39,950 nucleotides of DNA from Chloroflexota bacterium (lineage in GTDB: Bacteria; Chloroflexota; Anaerolineae; Anaerolineales; E44-bin32). The notes beneath the pieces were generated by a model. That model ran no database searches. It saw only the letters and a list, made by a program, of their open reading frames with translations, and had not been told where the DNA came from. This document shows positions 4,694 to 11,808 of the stretch, one piece after another. Position 1 is the first letter of the stretch, and the number at the start of each line of letters is the position of its first letter. The DNA lies in assembly GCA_027298025.1 (NCBI GenBank), contig JAPUGV010000246.1, forward strand, positions 1 to 39,950, in the 5' to 3' direction. The position numbers were made by a program, and so were the translations under genes.

Positions 4694-5946
4694 TTCAGTG
4701 GCTCCCAATTGGTGACCTCCAGCCGCTTTTCCCGCGAATCGGGTGCAAATCGTTCCAGTAGCTCCTTTCGGATGATGTCGTGCCGAATTCCCGCCGTGGA
4801 GAGCGCTGCGACAGCGTTCGATACGGATGCTGATCCGCCAAAGGAGGCCGAATCCAGCAGGAGTACCGTTGGGACGCAGCCGCGCCACATCAGCGGAAGC
4901 AGGTCCCCGACCCACTCACCGCTCGTCGAGGAGGAGATGATGATCAAACTCGAGGAGGCCCGGATGGAATTGCGCAAGCCACGCAGTAGGTCGCCGAGGG
5001 TGGACTCGCTCGTCGAAGCGATCGTTAAGGCAAGCAGGATCTCCCAGCGCTGTGCAGCGTCCGCGCGTGGTGGAAGCCAGATCTTTCCCTCATCTGCTGT
5101 GAGCCCGACCGCTCGCCGCTCGCGGAGGGCCCTATCCGCCAGGGAGGCCGCAATAACGATGGCTGCCTCCTCGGTAGAGTCTTGCTCATGCCCCACTTGC
5201 ACCGCTTGATCGAGATCGAGCACGATCCACCAATCCGCGGCGAGGGTGCTATCGAAACGGCGTACGTAAAGGGAGTCCAAGCGGGCGGAGGTGGGCCAGT
5301 GGATCCATTTCAGACTGTCACCAGGAGCGTATTCCGCCACCCTTGAAGAGCTCACCGTGCGTTCGAGCATGACCGGGCGCGGGCGCCCCTCGCCCGCCCG
5401 GCTGCCAGGCGCTACTTCCACACTGGGAAGCTGCAGGATCGGCGGCATTACCATTAGCGAGGCTGATGACGGATCGTGCACTTCAACTTCGTAGATTCCA
5501 AAGGGATCGCCGGATCGCAGTGTGGTGGGTCCGAGCGTGAAGACCCCCCGCCGGTTACAAATGACCTGCTTATGCCGGCGGAGAGATGAGTGACCCGGAA
5601 TCCCCATGATCACCGTGCTGCCAAAGACGGTTGAATGATCGACCAGCTCGAGCCACTCGGCCGAGGCCCAGCCGTTATTGGTCAGGGTGTAGCGTTCCAA
5701 CAAGGTGTCTCCGACCTGCTTCCAACTGAAGCGTGTTTCACGAGCGACCTGCAATCCGGACGCCAGGGATCGCGCCCACAGTGCCCCTATCAGCCACACA
5801 CCCCCTAATCCGACCAACAGCACGACCCAGCCTCGGTAAGGTACGAGCAGCTCCAGCACAAGCAGTAGCCCGACCGCAATCGGCAGCAGGCGCCGCTTGA
5901 GCTTTATTGAACGGGTGGGTTGAGGGAGGCTCTTCGAGGACCTCAC
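4690..5946 (-). CDS. DUF58 domain membrane protein
   Basis: A 418-residue protein with two hydrophobic helices in the first 60 residues and the DUF58 signature EYAPGDSLKWIHWPTSAR near residues 205-222. A von Willebrand A-like segment (WWIVLDLDQ) follows. DUF58 proteins accompany MoxR ATPases and are thought to be their clients or partners in assembling envelope complexes; that role is family knowledge, not something the sequence proves. The start is GTG at 5946, overlapping the MoxR stop (GTGA), and its own stop overlaps the GTG of the transglutaminase, so the three are tightly coupled. No atypical features were seen. Confidence 0.9.
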   Translation of the reverse strand: MRSSKSLPQPTRSIKLKRRLLPIAVGLLLVLELLVPYRGWVVLLVGLGGVWLIGALWARSLASGLQVARETRFSWKQVGDTLLERYTLTNNGWASAEWLELVDHSTVFGSTVIMGIPGHSSLRRHKQVICNRRGVFTLGPTTLRSGDPFGIYEVEVHDPSSASLMVMPPILQLPSVEVAPGSRAGEGRPRPVMLERTVSSSRVAEYAPGDSLKWIHWPTSARLDSLYVRRFDSTLAADWWIVLDLDQAVQVGHEQDSTEEAAIVIAASLADRALRERRAVGLTADEGKIWLPPRADAAQRWEILLALTIASTSESTLGDLLRGLRNSIRASSSLIIISSSTSGEWVGDLLPLMWRGCVPTVLLLDSASFGGSASVSNAVAALSTAGIRHDIIRKELLERFAPDSREKRLEVTNWEPLK

Positions 5947-6896
5947 GTCGGGATGGGCATCTGCCTCAGCGTTTCGTAGAGAATGTCGGATGGTGACAGC
6001 TCTCGAATGCGAGTTTCGGGCCGCAGGAGGAAGCGATGGGCCACGACCGAATCGGCCAAGGCCTTGATGTCGTCCGGAAGCACGTGGTCTCTGTTTTGGA
6101 TGCCTGCGCGCGCCTGCGCGGTGCGGTAGAGCCCCAGGCTAGCGCGCGCGCTCGGGCCGACGTACACCTCAGGATGATCACGTAGAGCGCGCGTCAGGTT
6201 AACGATGTATCCCTTCACTGCAGGTGAGACGAAAATATCCTTGATAGCGGCCTGCGCGGCGGAGAGCTCATCTGCGGTAGCAATCGCTTTCAAGCTGTCC
6301 AATGGGTGCTCATGCTGCTGACGGTCGAGGATCTCAATCTCCTGCTCGGGTTCGGCGTATCCCAAATGAACCCGCAACATAAAGCGATCGAGTTGAGCCT
6401 CTGGGAGCGGGAAAGTACCTTCATATTCGATGGGATTCTGAGTGGCAAGCACCATAAAGGGGTTTGGCAGCTCATGACTCACTCCATCCACGGTGATCTG
6501 ACGCTCGCCCATGGCCTCCAGCAATGCCGACTGCGTCTTGGGAGTGGCGCGGTTGATCTCGTCGGCCAACACGACCTGTGCCAGCAGCGGGCCGGGTCTG
6601 AACTCAAACTCGCGCGAACGTTGATTGAAGATGTACACGCCGGTCAGGTCGCTTGGCAGCATGTCCGGCGTGAATTGAATCCTGCTGAACGAGCAGCCAA
6701 GCGAGCGGGCCAAACTCCGTGCCAGCATGGTCTTCCCCACGCCAGGCATGTCCTCGATCAAGATATGACCTTCGGCGAGGATTCCGATAACCGCGAGTTC
6801 CACGGCCTCCCGCTTGCCCACGATCACTCGCTCAATGTTAGCGACGATGCGCTCGGCGAAGGTCTTGATCTCGATACCCGTCTGGGATTTCTCCAT
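5943..6896 (-). CDS. MoxR-family AAA+ ATPase
   Basis: A cytoplasmic AAA+ ATPase of 317 residues with Walker A EDMPGVGKTMLA, Walker B VLADEINRA, sensor 1 in LATQNP, and the C-terminal AAA lid ending in a Leu/Pro-rich tail. MoxR proteins act as chaperones for von Willebrand A-type partners, here most likely the DUF58 protein encoded immediately downstream. The open frame reaches back to an ATG at 6959, but that stretch lies inside the OsmC gene and reads as low-complexity arginine/tryptophan sequence. The ATG at 6896, giving MEKSQTG, lies 22 nt after the OsmC stop and is the likelier start. No good ribosome-binding site precedes it, so translation may depend on coupling with the OsmC gene. Confidence 0.9.
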   Translation of the reverse strand: MEKSQTGIEIKTFAERIVANIERVIVGKREAVELAVIGILAEGHILIEDMPGVGKTMLARSLARSLGCSFSRIQFTPDMLPSDLTGVYIFNQRSREFEFRPGPLLAQVVLADEINRATPKTQSALLEAMGERQITVDGVSHELPNPFMVLATQNPIEYEGTFPLPEAQLDRFMLRVHLGYAEPEQEIEILDRQQHEHPLDSLKAIATADELSAAQAAIKDIFVSPAVKGYIVNLTRALRDHPEVYVGPSARASLGLYRTAQARAGIQNRDHVLPDDIKALADSVVAHRFLLRPETRIRELSPSDILYETLRQMPIPT

Positions 6897-6918: not shown

Positions 6919-7392
6919 TTAAAGGTCCTCCATCTCCAGCGAGGTGGTGATATCCACACAGTCCCTAATTGTGCGCGCCACGGGGCAGGACTGCGCGTGG
7001 TGTTCGTGCGCCCGCTCGGCGGCCGCGCGCTTCTCCGGATCCAACTTGAGGGTGTATTTCACGTGAATGCGCTTGACCACGAGAATCTTCTCGTCTAGCT
7101 CGATCTCGCCAGTGGCTTCCGATGTCAGCCGGCCTTCGCCGGCGGGGATATCGCGCGCCTCCAGCGCGCCTCCTAGGGTCCCGGTCAGTCAACCGGCGGC
7201 CGCGGCGACTAGATAGTCTAGCGTAGTGGAATGGGCCGGATGGACCCCTGGTTCATGTTTGTAATATTCGGCAATCTCCGAGTGCGTGGAGAAGTAGATC
7301 GGATCCTCCTCCACCGGCATAAACACTCGGCGATAAGGCCCCTTGATTCGTTCCACGCGGATTTCGGATCGATAAACGACTTCATCAGACAT
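6919..7392 (-). CDS. OsmC-family peroxiredoxin-like protein, predicted selenoprotein (TGA = Sec68)
   Basis: An OsmC-fold protein of 157 residues, recovered only if the TGA at 7191-7189 is read as an amino acid. Before it the frame gives MSDEVVYRSEIRVERIKG through TTLDYLVAAAAG; after it, in the same frame, LTGTLGGALEARDIPAG through QSCPVARTIRD and a TAA stop. In OsmC proteins the residue after AAxAG is the peroxidatic Cys, so TGA falls exactly there (residue 68). The second redox cysteine, in QSCPVARTI, is kept as Cys136. A GC-rich hairpin starts 20 nt after the TGA, as expected for a bacterial SECIS. OsmC proteins reduce organic hydroperoxides, and Sec-containing OsmC-like proteins are a known class. 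The start at 7392 has a GGAGGTG ribosome-binding site. A stop mutation or sequencing error is the alternative, but both halves are well conserved. No sel genes are in the window. Confidence 0.82.
7153..7169 (-). promoter_or_regulatory. Candidate bacterial SECIS hairpin for the OsmC selenoprotein
   Basis: On the minus strand, 20 nt after the in-frame TGA, GCGCGC (7169-7164) pairs perfectly with GCGCGC (7158-7153) around the five-base loop UGGAG. The loop begins 26 nt after the TGA, within the roughly 16-37 nt spacing described for bacterial SECIS elements. It has G at its second and third positions, meeting the usual requirement for a G among the first two loop bases. Caution: in GC-rich DNA such stems also arise by chance. 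Confidence 0.65.
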
Positions 7393-7451
7393 GACACCTC
7401 CACACAAATACAGGCGCAATCGGGGGGATGCGGGCCCACACTTTCGATCGC

Positions 7452-8291
7452 CTAGCCTTTGACCGCCCCCATTGTCAATCCGGCGACCAAGCGACTCAGG
7501 AACAAGCTATACACAATTCCAACTGGGATCGCCACAATCACCGCCGCGGCCATCAGCGACTGCCAGAAGAAGACGTCGCCTCGGATCAGCTCGACCGGTA
7601 CGCCCACACTGATCGTGCGTTGGGCCGAGGCGGTGACAAAGGTCAGGGCATAGATGAACTCGTGTAAGGTGAGGGTGAACGTGAAGACGATCACCGCGAT
7701 GATTCCCGAGACCGAAAGCGGGAGCACAACGCGCGTAAACGCCGACAGCCGGCTGTAGCCGTCGACCATTGCCGCTTCCTCGAGGTCGCGCGGGATAGAG
7801 CTGAAGAATCCGGCCAAGAGCCAGGTCGAAAAGGGAATCGTGATGGTCGGGTATACCACAACCAGCGACCAAAGGCTGTTGTTGAGACCTAAGGCCACAA
7901 CGATCCGAAAAAGCGGGATGAAAAGCAGAATCGGGGGCACCAGATAAATCAAGAACATCCCAATGCTGGCCCGCTCGCCCCAGCGCCCAGCTAGGCGAGC
8001 CAAGCTGTATCCGGCGGGGATCGCGAGCAGCAAGGTGATGATCACGACCAACGTGCCGATGAACAGCGAATTGCGAATGAACCCAAGGTAATTGGTGTTG
8101 AGGAACAGGAACTCCAGGTTCTCAAGGGTGGCGGGTTCGTTGTACAGGAAAGGATTGCCTTGAGCCCGGTAGAGGTCGCGGTCGGTCTTAAAGGTAGTGA
8201 GGATCATCCACAGAAAGGGTGCCGCGGAGAAAAAGCTGAAGGCCGCGATGGTCGCATAGAGCGCCACACGCTTCATCCGGGGTCTGGCCAC
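7452..8291 (-). CDS. Carbohydrate ABC transporter permease (MalG/UgpE type)
   Basis: A 279-residue inner-membrane permease with about six hydrophobic helices and the ABC-permease EAA loop, EEAAMVDGYSRLSAFTRVVLP, near residues 170-190, which contacts the ATPase. Length and motif fit the second permease of CUT1-type sugar importers. The start is GTG at 8291, directly abutting the TAG stop of the first permease, so the two are translationally linked; an internal ATG at 8276 is possible. It is the last gene of the importer set. The next gene (OsmC), 59 nt on, has its own ribosome-binding site and could still lie on the same transcript. Confidence 0.92.
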   Translation of the reverse strand: MARPRMKRVALYATIAAFSFFSAAPFLWMILTTFKTDRDLYRAQGNPFLYNEPATLENLEFLFLNTNYLGFIRNSLFIGTLVVIITLLLAIPAGYSLARLAGRWGERASIGMFLIYLVPPILLFIPLFRIVVALGLNNSLWSLVVVYPTITIPFSTWLLAGFFSSIPRDLEEAAMVDGYSRLSAFTRVVLPLSVSGIIAVIVFTFTLTLHEFIYALTFVTASAQRTISVGVPVELIRGDVFFWQSLMAAAVIVAIPVGIVYSLFLSRLVAGLTMGAVKG

Positions 8292-9230
8292 CTAGGTCAC
8301 CTCGATTCTGCGCACGGTGCGAAGGATCAAGATTGCGGCCACAAGCAGAACCGGAGCGAAAAACAGTGCGATCGCCGCCCCTTCCGCGAGCGCACCCCCC
8401 TCAATGCCCTTGTTATACGACCACATAGAAAGCACTTGAGTGAAGTAGATTGGCCCGCCCCGCGTCAGCACAAAAACCACCACCAGGTCGGTGAAGATCA
8501 GGATGAATGCGAAGAGTGACGCAATGGCCATAATTGGGGTGATAAGCGGCAATTTGATTTGAAGGTGGGTACGCAACCCGCTCGCGCCATCTACCTGGGC
8601 TTGATCAATCAATTCCTGATCGATCGAAGTCAGGCCGGCCAGCAAGATCACCGCCGAGAGCGGGACCAGTCGCCACACGTGCACTAAGACCACCGAGCCC
8701 ATCGCCAAATACTCGCGTCCGAGGTAGTTGAGATGAAGTCCGGGTCCCAGGAGCGTATCCGGACCGAGCAGTCCGATCTGCACCAACACATAATCGATGG
8801 GGCTGAATTTCGAATCCAGCAACCAGAGCCAGCCCAGGGTCCCTAAGGATGTTGGAGTAGCCCACGGGAGGATGACCAAGATTCGGGCCAGCCACTTGCC
8901 GCGGAAATCCTGTGTGAACAGCACCGCCAGGATGTTGGCTAGCACAAGGATGATGAGCAGGGCCGCGGTCGTGAATATGAACGTATTGATGACCGCGCGC
9001 TGGAACTGCGGCGTCCGGATGACGCGCCGAAAATTCTCCAGTCCGACGTAGTCCAGGCTGGTGTCTCCGACCGTTACGTCCGACAGACTGAAGGCGATCG
9101 ATATGAGAAGCGGCAGGCCAACAAGAGCCAGGATGAAAAGCACCGCCGGCGCCAGCATCATCGCGCCAAGGAGGCGCTCGTTGTCGGAGAGGAGTCGAAA
9201 TCTAGAGGGCCGAACCGTCTCAACGCTCAT
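8292..9230 (-). CDS. Carbohydrate ABC transporter permease (MalF/UgpA type)
   Basis: A 312-residue membrane permease with about six helices and the EAA loop DQAQVDGASGLRTHLQIKLP near residues 215-235. It is the first permease of a CUT1-family sugar or polyol importer. Its ATG overlaps the stop of the ATPase gene by 4 nt (ATGA), and the next permease begins at its stop. The set ATPase, two permeases and binding lipoprotein is complete and co-oriented. The transported sugar cannot be read from the sequence. Confidence 0.92.
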   Translation of the reverse strand: MSVETVRPSRFRLLSDNERLLGAMMLAPAVLFILALVGLPLLISIAFSLSDVTVGDTSLDYVGLENFRRVIRTPQFQRAVINTFIFTTAALLIILVLANILAVLFTQDFRGKWLARILVILPWATPTSLGTLGWLWLLDSKFSPIDYVLVQIGLLGPDTLLGPGLHLNYLGREYLAMGSVVLVHVWRLVPLSAVILLAGLTSIDQELIDQAQVDGASGLRTHLQIKLPLITPIMAIASLFAFILIFTDLVVVFVLTRGGPIYFTQVLSMWSYNKGIEGGALAEGAAIALFFAPVLLVAAILILRTVRRIEVT

Positions 9231-10249
9231 CGTGCAGCCGGAGTGGTCATGCGCCCGGTTTCTTTGTCGAAATACCGCAAGTGCTCGGTGTTGATGACGA
9301 ACTCCTTTTTTTCTCCAGCCCTGGCAAAGAAGGTTGAGGTAGAGGGGATTTTAGCCACCACTTTAGCGCCCCCGTCCACCGAGCCATAGACCAGCGTGTC
9401 GGCGCCTAGATTTTCCACTCGATCGACGGTGACCATATAGCTTTGACCATTGACCCTTGCATCGTCTGCGGGACGGAAGTGTTCGGGCCGAAATCCCACG
9501 GTGTAGTCCGGCCCCTCGATCAGGTTCATGCCAGGCGATCCCAAAAACGTTGCCACGAAAGTATCTGCGGATTCGCTGTAGATCTCATCCGGCGTTCCAA
9601 CTTGCTTGATCTTGCCCGCGTGCATGACGGCAATGCGATCCCCCAAACCCATGGCCTCGACCTGATCGTGCGTCACGAAAATCGTGGTGATTCCCAGCCG
9701 ACGCTGGAAACGCTGGAGTTCATCACGCGCGGAAGCGCGCAGCTTGGCATCGAGGTTGGAGAGCGGTTCATCGAGCAACAGGAGGTTGGGTTCCTTCACC
9801 ATCGCCCTGGCGAGAGCCACGCGTTGCCGCTCGCCGCCGGAGAGTTGACGCGGTTTTCGGTCTAGCAGGGACTCAATTCCCAGCACACTCGCGGCATGTC
9901 GAACCTTCTCATCAATTTCCCCTTTGGTGAACGCTCCTTGGGCTCTGAGGGGGAAGGCGATGTTCCGATACACCGTCATGTGCGGATAGAGCGCGTAGCT
10001 CTGGAACACCATGGCGATGTTCCGTGCTCGGGGAGGAAGCTGGGTCACCTGCTCTCCGTCGATCAGGATCTCGCCATCGGTTGGAGTTTCGAGTCCCGCG
10101 ATCATGCGCATCAGCGTGGTCTTGCCGCAACCTGAGGGTCCCAGGATGACGAGCAGCTCACCCTCCTGGATGGAAAGGTCAACCCCATCCACGGCCTTCA
10201 CATCCGCAAAGTGCTTTCTAAGTGTTTGAGTTTCTACAAAGGGTGTCAT
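9227..10249 (-). CDS. Carbohydrate ABC transporter ATP-binding protein (MalK/UgpC type)
   Basis: A 340-residue ABC ATPase with Walker A GPSGCGKTT at residues 37-45, Q-loop MVFQSYALYPHM, signature LSGGERQRVALARAM, Walker B LLLLDEPLSNLDA, and the H-loop THDQ. A C-terminal TOBE-type domain contains VGFRPEHF, as in MalK/UgpC proteins that energise sugar importers. It lies between the binding-protein gene and the permeases. A strong hairpin (10258-10291) separates it from the binding protein, which probably lowers expression of the membrane parts relative to the binding protein. Confidence 0.93.
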   Translation of the reverse strand: MTPFVETQTLRKHFADVKAVDGVDLSIQEGELLVILGPSGCGKTTLMRMIAGLETPTDGEILIDGEQVTQLPPRARNIAMVFQSYALYPHMTVYRNIAFPLRAQGAFTKGEIDEKVRHAASVLGIESLLDRKPRQLSGGERQRVALARAMVKEPNLLLLDEPLSNLDAKLRASARDELQRFQRRLGITTIFVTHDQVEAMGLGDRIAVMHAGKIKQVGTPDEIYSESADTFVATFLGSPGMNLIEGPDYTVGFRPEHFRPADDARVNGQSYMVTVDRVENLGADTLVYGSVDGGAKVVAKIPSTSTFFARAGEKKEFVINTEHLRYFDKETGRMTTPAAR

Positions 10250-10257
10250 TGGAGAAC

Positions 10258-10291
10258 TAAGGCCCGCCGAAACGAATTCCGGCGGGCCTTA
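10258..10291 (-). terminator. Intercistronic hairpin after the sugar-binding protein gene
   Basis: A perfect 12-bp inverted repeat, TAAGGCCCGCCG (10258-10269) and CGGCGGGCCTTA (10280-10291), flanks a 10-nt loop. It sits between the solute-binding gene and its ATPase gene, both on the minus strand. Only a short broken U-run follows it, so partial termination or protection of the upstream mRNA is more likely than a full stop. Confidence 0.75.
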
Positions 10292-10347
10292 AGGCGAGCG
10301 TTAATTCGAAATGATATTGCTGCTCTCGCGCGCGCCAAGTACGCTGG

Positions 10348-11808
10348 CTAACCTACCGCACAGTCGGGCGAAGCTTCACCGCCGACCAAGCCATCATCCC
10401 GCCATTTCTGGAAGATATCTTCGATCTGAGCATGCGCTTCACACACCGCCTCGGCGGCGGACAGTTCGCCCAGAGCAGCCTTGCCCATCATGTTTGGGAT
10501 GATGCTGGCCCCGAACACCTCACCGGTGGCCGGGTTGGCCGGGCCGGGAAAGCCGAGATAGACGGTCCAATTGAGCGCGTCCGCCAGCAAAGCCAGCTTG
10601 TCCTGTGGCCGCGAGCCGAACGGGTCTTTATTCACCCAGCCTTCCAGTTGCGGAACGGTGCTCGGAAAAGCCGGGAAATTGTACAGCTCGCTGTTGAAGA
10701 CGGCTTGATTGGCGTTAGCAGTGAGGTGCAGCAGGAAGGCCTTGGCGGCCTCCAGCTCCGCGCCTTCCACGTAGCTGGGAATGACGTAGATACCCCACAC
10801 GTGGGCAGACGCGGCCTGATCGCCGCGCGGTCCAATCAGTGCCGGTCCGAAGCCGATGTTGTCGGCCGCGGCTGGATCGATCTTCTGCAGGCTGCGATAG
10901 GCCGAGATCGAATTGAGAATGTAGGAGAGTTCTCCCGCGATCAACCCCTGATTATTGGAGGCCGGGGTCCAGGCAAAAACTTCCTCGGTCATGGCGTTGT
11001 TGAAAAGCTCGGCCATGAACTCGACCGCCTCGACCACCTCCGGCGAGTCGATCACGACGTTTTCATTCTCGTCCTGGATCGAGCCGCCGTAGGACCAGAT
11101 CAGCGCTCGACCGGCCATGCGCGAGTCGAGCTCGGGAGAAAGCCCAATGCCCAGCGGCACACCAGTCTTATCCTTGATGGCCTTGCCGCCTTCCAACAGG
11201 TCACGCCAGGTCTCAGGGCCGTTTGGGTAGCCTGCGTCGGCCCACAATGCGGAGTCGTAATCGGCTGGGTCGGGTATCCAGGAGTGACAGAAGCCATACC
11301 ACTTATCCACGGCAGGCAAGTACGAGCTGTTGGCGCAGCTGGCGGCCTGCTCACCCCACAGCGCCTGAGCCTGCTCGTTCACATCCGTCAGGTCTTGAAC
11401 CCCGTTTACGAAGGCGGAAGGCGCGAAGAGCACTTCAACCATCGTCGGGCCCTCTCCGGCGTCGATTGACGCCGTTAGGGCAGCAGTTGTGTCGGGGATG
11501 CCGACATGATCGACCGTCGCCTCAACCCCATTGGCGTCACCCCAAGCCTCGAGGAACGGGTCGAACCATATGTCGTACTGCGGGACGAAGTGGCTCCACT
11601 GCACGATGTGTATGGAAGTGCCCTCAGGGAACTCTGGGACCTGCACCTCGACTGGAACTTCTACCTCTACAGGAACCTCGACTTCGACTTGAACCTCGCG
11701 CGTGACTTCGACTTGCTGGATCTCCGGCTCCGCGGGCTGACAGGCGCCTAACAGCAGAGCCAAAAGGGCCAGTGACCCCAGCAGATACCAAAGATTGCGT
11801 TTAGACAT
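10348..11808 (-). CDS. Extracellular sugar-binding lipoprotein of an ABC importer
   Basis: A 486-residue family 1 solute-binding protein. The signal peptide ends in the lipobox LLGAC (Cys23). It is followed by an alternating Val-Glu stretch (about residues 32-58) of the kind often found after the lipobox in Chloroflexota binding proteins, probably a membrane-to-domain spacer. The mature part has the periplasmic-binding-protein pattern, with IHIVQWSHF at the first strand, GIPDTTAALTASIDAG, and a hinge region rich in Trp and Gly. The start at 11808 has a very strong AGGAGGAGAG ribosome-binding site. It leads the importer operon, driven from a promoter at about 11863-11891 overlapped by palindromes. 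The ligand is presumably a sugar or polyol. Confidence 0.92.
   Translation of the reverse strand: MSKRNLWYLLGSLALLALLLGACQPAEPEIQQVEVTREVQVEVEVPVEVEVPVEVQVPEFPEGTSIHIVQWSHFVPQYDIWFDPFLEAWGDANGVEATVDHVGIPDTTAALTASIDAGEGPTMVEVLFAPSAFVNGVQDLTDVNEQAQALWGEQAASCANSSYLPAVDKWYGFCHSWIPDPADYDSALWADAGYPNGPETWRDLLEGGKAIKDKTGVPLGIGLSPELDSRMAGRALIWSYGGSIQDENENVVIDSPEVVEAVEFMAELFNNAMTEEVFAWTPASNNQGLIAGELSYILNSISAYRSLQKIDPAAADNIGFGPALIGPRGDQAASAHVWGIYVIPSYVEGAELEAAKAFLLHLTANANQAVFNSELYNFPAFPSTVPQLEGWVNKDPFGSRPQDKLALLADALNWTVYLGFPGPANPATGEVFGASIIPNMMGKAALGELSAAEAVCEAHAQIEDIFQKWRDDGLVGGEASPDCAVG

Follow-up and report, generated by a model that had tools for sequence, protein, structure and literature searches.

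A stop codon seems to interrupt the OsmC gene of this stretch of Chloroflexota DNA, but the gene is very probably intact and codes for a single antioxidant enzyme that contains selenium. Comparative sequence evidence indicates that the TGA of codon 68 is almost certainly decoded as selenocysteine (Sec), because the TGA forms a conserved column among homologues, the genome has the Sec machinery, the codons of a downstream stem are conserved and the full stem is absent from the genes with cysteine. OsmC-like selenoproteins are described in the catalogues and surveys consulted here as one family with the motif UxxT (PMC1088965, PMC2398784, PMC9312934, PMC13188914). It is highly probable, from the sequences compared here, both that the codon specifies Sec and that the protein belongs to a family separate from the UxxT family. 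We further consider it likely that this is a second OsmC selenoprotein family, one that neither NCBIfam nor the 2026 catalogue includes. Nearly all of its members would have Sec, with Cys as the exception, and they would be spread over Actinomycetota and Chloroflexota, the latter with a bin labelled Thermomicrobiales among them, and share a SECIS core of almost constant sequence.

Results

The window, that is, the whole stretch of 39,950 nucleotides that was analysed, comes from a metagenome bin of 2.72 Mb in 283 contigs that is 90% complete, and the gene and its neighbours lie on a single 40-kb contig. A plasmid search gave no match, and neither did an Rfam scan of the window at gathering thresholds. 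The gene is on the minus strand (7392-6919) and has 157 codons, starting with ATG and followed by TAA. Its sole in-frame stop is the TGA at 7191-7189, residue 68, where the protein reads VAAAAG-U-LTGTLGGALEAR. A good ribosome-binding site, the Shine-Dalgarno-like GGAGGTG (7398-7404, minus strand; sequence TGGAGGTGTCATG), is located 5-6 nt 5' of the ATG.

The original prediction was that two short frames join into one OsmC protein, and the Pfam OsmC model (PF02566) bears this out, since its match covers both flanks of the TGA (residues 58-150; 51.5 bits against a gathering score of 27.5). An AlphaFold2 model, built with 28 homologues and with Cys in place of Sec, has a pLDDT of 92.7 and shows a helix [57-78] that is continuous across residue 68. 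Among solved structures, Foldseek ranks OsmC and Ohr proteins highest. In a profile alignment to the Thermus OsmC structure 1ukk, residue 68 corresponds to the Cys of AAHAGC, in agreement with the proposal that the TGA replaces the catalytic Cys that follows AAxAG, the peroxidatic position of OsmC proteins. The second 1ukk Cys, in CPVSR, aligns with Cys136, the predicted resolving Cys (codon at 6985-6987, minus strand), which sits in SCPVAR, at the start of CPVARTI, and is invariant in alignments A1 and A3. This residue is thus retained, as predicted, and with the frame read through there is no second disruption in the 157 codons. When solved structures were searched by sequence, the narrow profile A1 found nothing, and the broader profile A3 gave 2onf as the best relative (E = 1.4e-4). 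By profile, fold and two redox positions, the protein is a member of the OsmC/Ohr superfamily (PF02566).

With 67 codons before the TGA and 89 after it, the frame could also be read as two separate overlapping genes, or as a deliberate 67-residue product and a re-initiated downstream product. This arrangement is very improbable: the two halves constitute a single OsmC domain, with the Pfam match and the modelled helix both running through residue 68, and seven homologues have an uninterrupted frame with Cys.

Homologues were collected from a scan of named genomes, from 396 genomes of the window's class, from a phylum-wide search and from the phylum of a Rubrobacter match. The named-genome scan gave 12 loci, the nearest of which is in a Chloroflexi metagenome bin and is 94% identical. 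In the class search, 37 further genomes gave a strong match, and in each of them the matched frame carries a TGA. Of 95 loci from Chloroflexota and Actinomycetota, 87 have TGA at residue 68, 7 have a Cys codon there and 1 has a Trp codon, and the TGA-bearing loci span many families of two phyla, single-contig genomes included. Both halves of the gene are under purifying selection; 3' of the TGA, dN/dS is about 0.08-0.16, with pairs beyond the nearest sibling near saturation.

The distribution of the TGA bears on whether it is a nonsense mutation or a miscall in an ordinary Cys-OsmC gene. A lone stop in a metagenome-assembled contig would fit such an error, and decayed copies of the family do exist. 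One of these, L083 (G661:C49:15837-16208), has TGG (Trp) at the Sec codon in a genome that keeps SelA, and it is probably decaying because the conserved Arg80 is lost and the start, at its N-terminus, is broken. Another, L047, has an additional TAA in frame. Against a mutation or an error at codon 68 stand the sharing of the TGA by nearly all loci across both phyla, the purifying selection downstream of it and the conservation of silent sites in the hairpin described below. We regard a pseudogene or a sequencing error as very unlikely.

Every intact homologue with a sense codon at residue 68 has Cys there (7 of 7; TGC or TGT). These Cys members share the residue-68 position and the second Cys with the Sec members, and differ from them by the Cys codon and by lacking the conserved 7-bp stem. 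Six of them (L137-L140, L144 and L145) come from the phylum of the Rubrobacter match and have a GCLIGTF-type motif, and two genomes, G822 and G887, have two Cys forms each. The seventh, L084 (G724:C243:10704-11159), is a Chloroflexota protein from a genome that keeps SelA, and it pairs with the Sec protein L082 (91/92). The Cys forms thus occupy two places among the Sec rows of the tree, the six together and L084 by L082. This placement, in a tree without a firm root, hints at Sec-to-Cys changes within the family; L084 possibly represents one.

The source genome encodes a tRNA-Sec (72.3 bits, anticodon TCA), SelA (550 bits), SelB (356 bits) and SelD (360 bits), the last with an in-frame TGA of its own. 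The absence of sel genes or of tRNA-Sec had been named beforehand as the outcome that would speak against the prediction; SelA, SelB, SelD and tRNA-Sec were all found. Among the genomes of the class, SelA is present in 37 of the 38 with the OsmC-Sec gene and in 281 of the 358 without it (Fisher p = 0.0017, with kinship ignored). The one genome with the gene and no SelA match, G335, is a draft assembly. It is also the exception in a further test of 19 genomes with a homologue, in which 18 were positive for SelA, the Cys-form and Trp-form genomes among them.

Two observations concern the machinery itself. The SelD of the source genome (L018, G000:C47:16012-16941) is a predicted selenoprotein with the motif SCAGUASK and a GUU-loop hairpin 3' of its TGA. 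In genus g136 (G236:C1:3959807-3961237 and others), the SelA match falls in two pieces within one open frame, which suggests an insertion of about 32 residues.

The TGA could also be read as a residue other than Sec, through a reassigned code or near-cognate readthrough, and the Trp codon of the decayed homologue L083 would agree with this. TGA is an ordinary stop here, where it terminates many long frames of the window and 20 genes of the new OsmC family itself. Furthermore, the intact sense replacement is always Cys, and both a SECIS element and the full Sec machinery are present. Decoding as another residue is accordingly given very little weight.

The predicted SECIS apical hairpin, GCGCGCU-GGA-GGCGCGC, is located at 7169-7153 (minus strand). 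It can be drawn with 7 bp and the 3-nt loop GGA, or with 6 bp and the loop UGGAG; the latter is the G-containing five-base loop of the original prediction, found at exactly the positions given there. The published bacterial SECIS model (PMC13188914), which was used as a test of this hairpin, has a loop of 3-9 nt with G in the first two positions, a stem of 4-16 bp, a distance of 16-37 nt from the UGA and an energy of at most -7.5 kcal/mol. The window hairpin, whose GGA loop begins 26 nt 3' of the TGA above a 7-bp stem and whose energy is -11.2 kcal/mol, lies within all of these limits.

Some loci possibly derive from one organism, so the hairpin statistics were restricted to 62 non-redundant Sec genes that are less than 85% identical. 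In this set, stem codons 75, 76, 77 and 79 have a same-codon rate of 0.80-0.87, against 0.45 expected, and at no other codon of the gene does synonymous conservation exceed expectation by as much. The complete 7-bp stem occurs in 52 of the 62 genes, while synonymous-codon resampling predicts 2.6 and the maximum in 500 resamplings was 8. None of the seven Cys genes retains all seven stem pairs. The conserved TGA column and the conserved stem are far beyond chance.

The stem in the same register is imperfect in about 10 of the 62 Sec genes, most clearly in L141 and L142, which need another hairpin. These two belong, with L086-L089, to a deeper Sec subclade that has the motif UM(Y/M)GTLA and different hairpin sequences. 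In L086-L088 the letters of the stem have changed, yet these genes still have a hairpin at a nearly equal distance, with GUU or GUC as its loop.

The original prediction assigned the protein to the described marine class of OsmC-like selenoproteins, and this assignment does not hold. The NCBIfam model NF041052 (OsmC_like_Se) appears, from its name and the shared UxxT motif, to represent the OsmC-like family of the Sargasso Sea and GOS surveys. That family (PMC1088965, PMC2398784, PMC13188914) resembles the new one in its OsmC fold, in Sec at the position of the peroxidatic Cys and in bacterial SECIS decoding. However, its motif is FUxxTQ (UxxT; FULLTQ in members), whereas the new family has GU[LM]xGT (UxxGT; ULTGT in the window protein). 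The window protein scores 18.4 bits with NF041052, for which the cut-off is 95, and the source genome has no NF041052 match at E 1e-6. Over 301 Chloroflexota genomes, the same model found 18 members above its cut-off, mostly with FUxxTQ-type motifs; 17 have TGA and one, L093 (G652:C8:95038-95463), is a Cys form of that known family. In a tree of 89 proteins, the new family and the NF041052 set form two separate clades, each with 100/100 support, on very long stem branches. The two families occur together in two genomes, G428 and G459. Membership of the window protein in the known UxxT family is ruled out by the NF041052 score, the search of the phylum and the tree.

The OsmC/Ohr peroxidases (PF02566; TIGR03562, TIGR03563; E. 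coli OsmC 1nye/1qwi and Thermus 1ukk) share with the new family the fold and both redox positions, but have Cys where the new family has Sec. The window protein is also below the cut-offs of the OsmC model (23.8 against 85.8) and of the SACOL1771 model (24.6 against 166). None of the NCBIfam models covers the new family, and we found no report of a UxxGT family in the literature on OsmC with selenocysteine. According to a 2026 review, a shared domain combined with a different Sec motif defines a distinct subfamily. By this rule, the predicted selenoprotein and its relatives are a new subfamily, and by the tree they are a separate lineage.

Upstream of the OsmC gene, on the minus strand, the window has a complete sugar-type ABC importer, with a binding protein, an ATPase and two permeases (7452-11808). 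The nearest permease gene (7452-8291; Pfam BPD_transp_1) is separated from the OsmC gene by 59 nt, and the importer and the Sec-OsmC gene are possibly in one transcript. A related importer gene is found 5' of the OsmC gene in five loci. Downstream, also on the minus strand, there is a MoxR-type AAA ATPase (5943-6896; Pfam AAA_3). The position upstream of a MoxR-DUF58-TgpA operon had been thought to matter, but a MoxR neighbour is confined to the window genome and one sibling, L021. We reject a functional tie to MoxR-DUF58-TgpA, because the only locus that shares it is this sibling, which is 94% identical over the OsmC protein. Elsewhere the neighbours are varied and include SDR, aldo/keto reductase, mannonate dehydratase-like and ABC importer genes. 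Among Rubrobacter-type loci, four have a DsbA-like gene after the Sec-OsmC gene (L030, L118, L119 and L126) and three have a CMD/AhpD-like gene before it (L122, L125 and L126), neighbours that would loosely fit a redox role.

Discussion

On the comparative sequence evidence, UGA68 is almost certainly read as selenocysteine by the SelB/tRNA-Sec pathway, directed by the hairpin directly downstream, and this reading is about as firm as sequence data allow. Sec68 occupies the site of the peroxidatic cysteine of OsmC-family peroxidases. In the mechanism that we propose, its selenolate could be activated by conserved neighbours such as Arg21, Glu39 or Asp59, candidates that are put forward from their conservation. 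The selenolate would reduce a hydroperoxide, the oxidised Sec68 would form a selenenyl-sulfide with Cys136, and a dithiol reductant would reset this bond, as in OsmC/Ohr proteins. In the latter, the reductant is dihydrolipoamide. The peroxidase step, which is modelled on the chemistry of the OsmC/Ohr family, is reasonably likely.

A less likely, though still serious, alternative is that the Sec protein is not a peroxidase and takes part in selenenyl-sulfide exchange with DsbA- or AhpD-like partners, or handles sulfur or persulfide substrates. The DsbA-like and CMD/AhpD-like genes of the Rubrobacter-type loci point in this direction, as do the varied neighbours elsewhere and the distance of the family from characterised Ohr/OsmC enzymes, reflected in the E value of its best solved relative. 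The retention of both redox positions of OsmC peroxidases argues for the peroxidase instead, and the nearest named models are OsmC-superfamily peroxiredoxins.

The original prediction placed the novelty in the occurrence of the gene and in its neighbourhood. This was misplaced, because the protein falls outside the described marine class; it is the family itself that is new, and not the neighbourhood. The finding brings to light a selenoprotein family of wide distribution that escapes present curated models, so that in many genomes the gene would probably be split or lost by annotation pipelines. The motif GU[LM]xGT followed by CP, together with the SECIS core, provides a simple handle to detect further members. 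Since Sec is found in 87 of the 95 loci, selenium appears to be important for the chemistry of this family, and a direct comparison of Sec with Cys on the OsmC fold could use the few Cys forms as natural controls.
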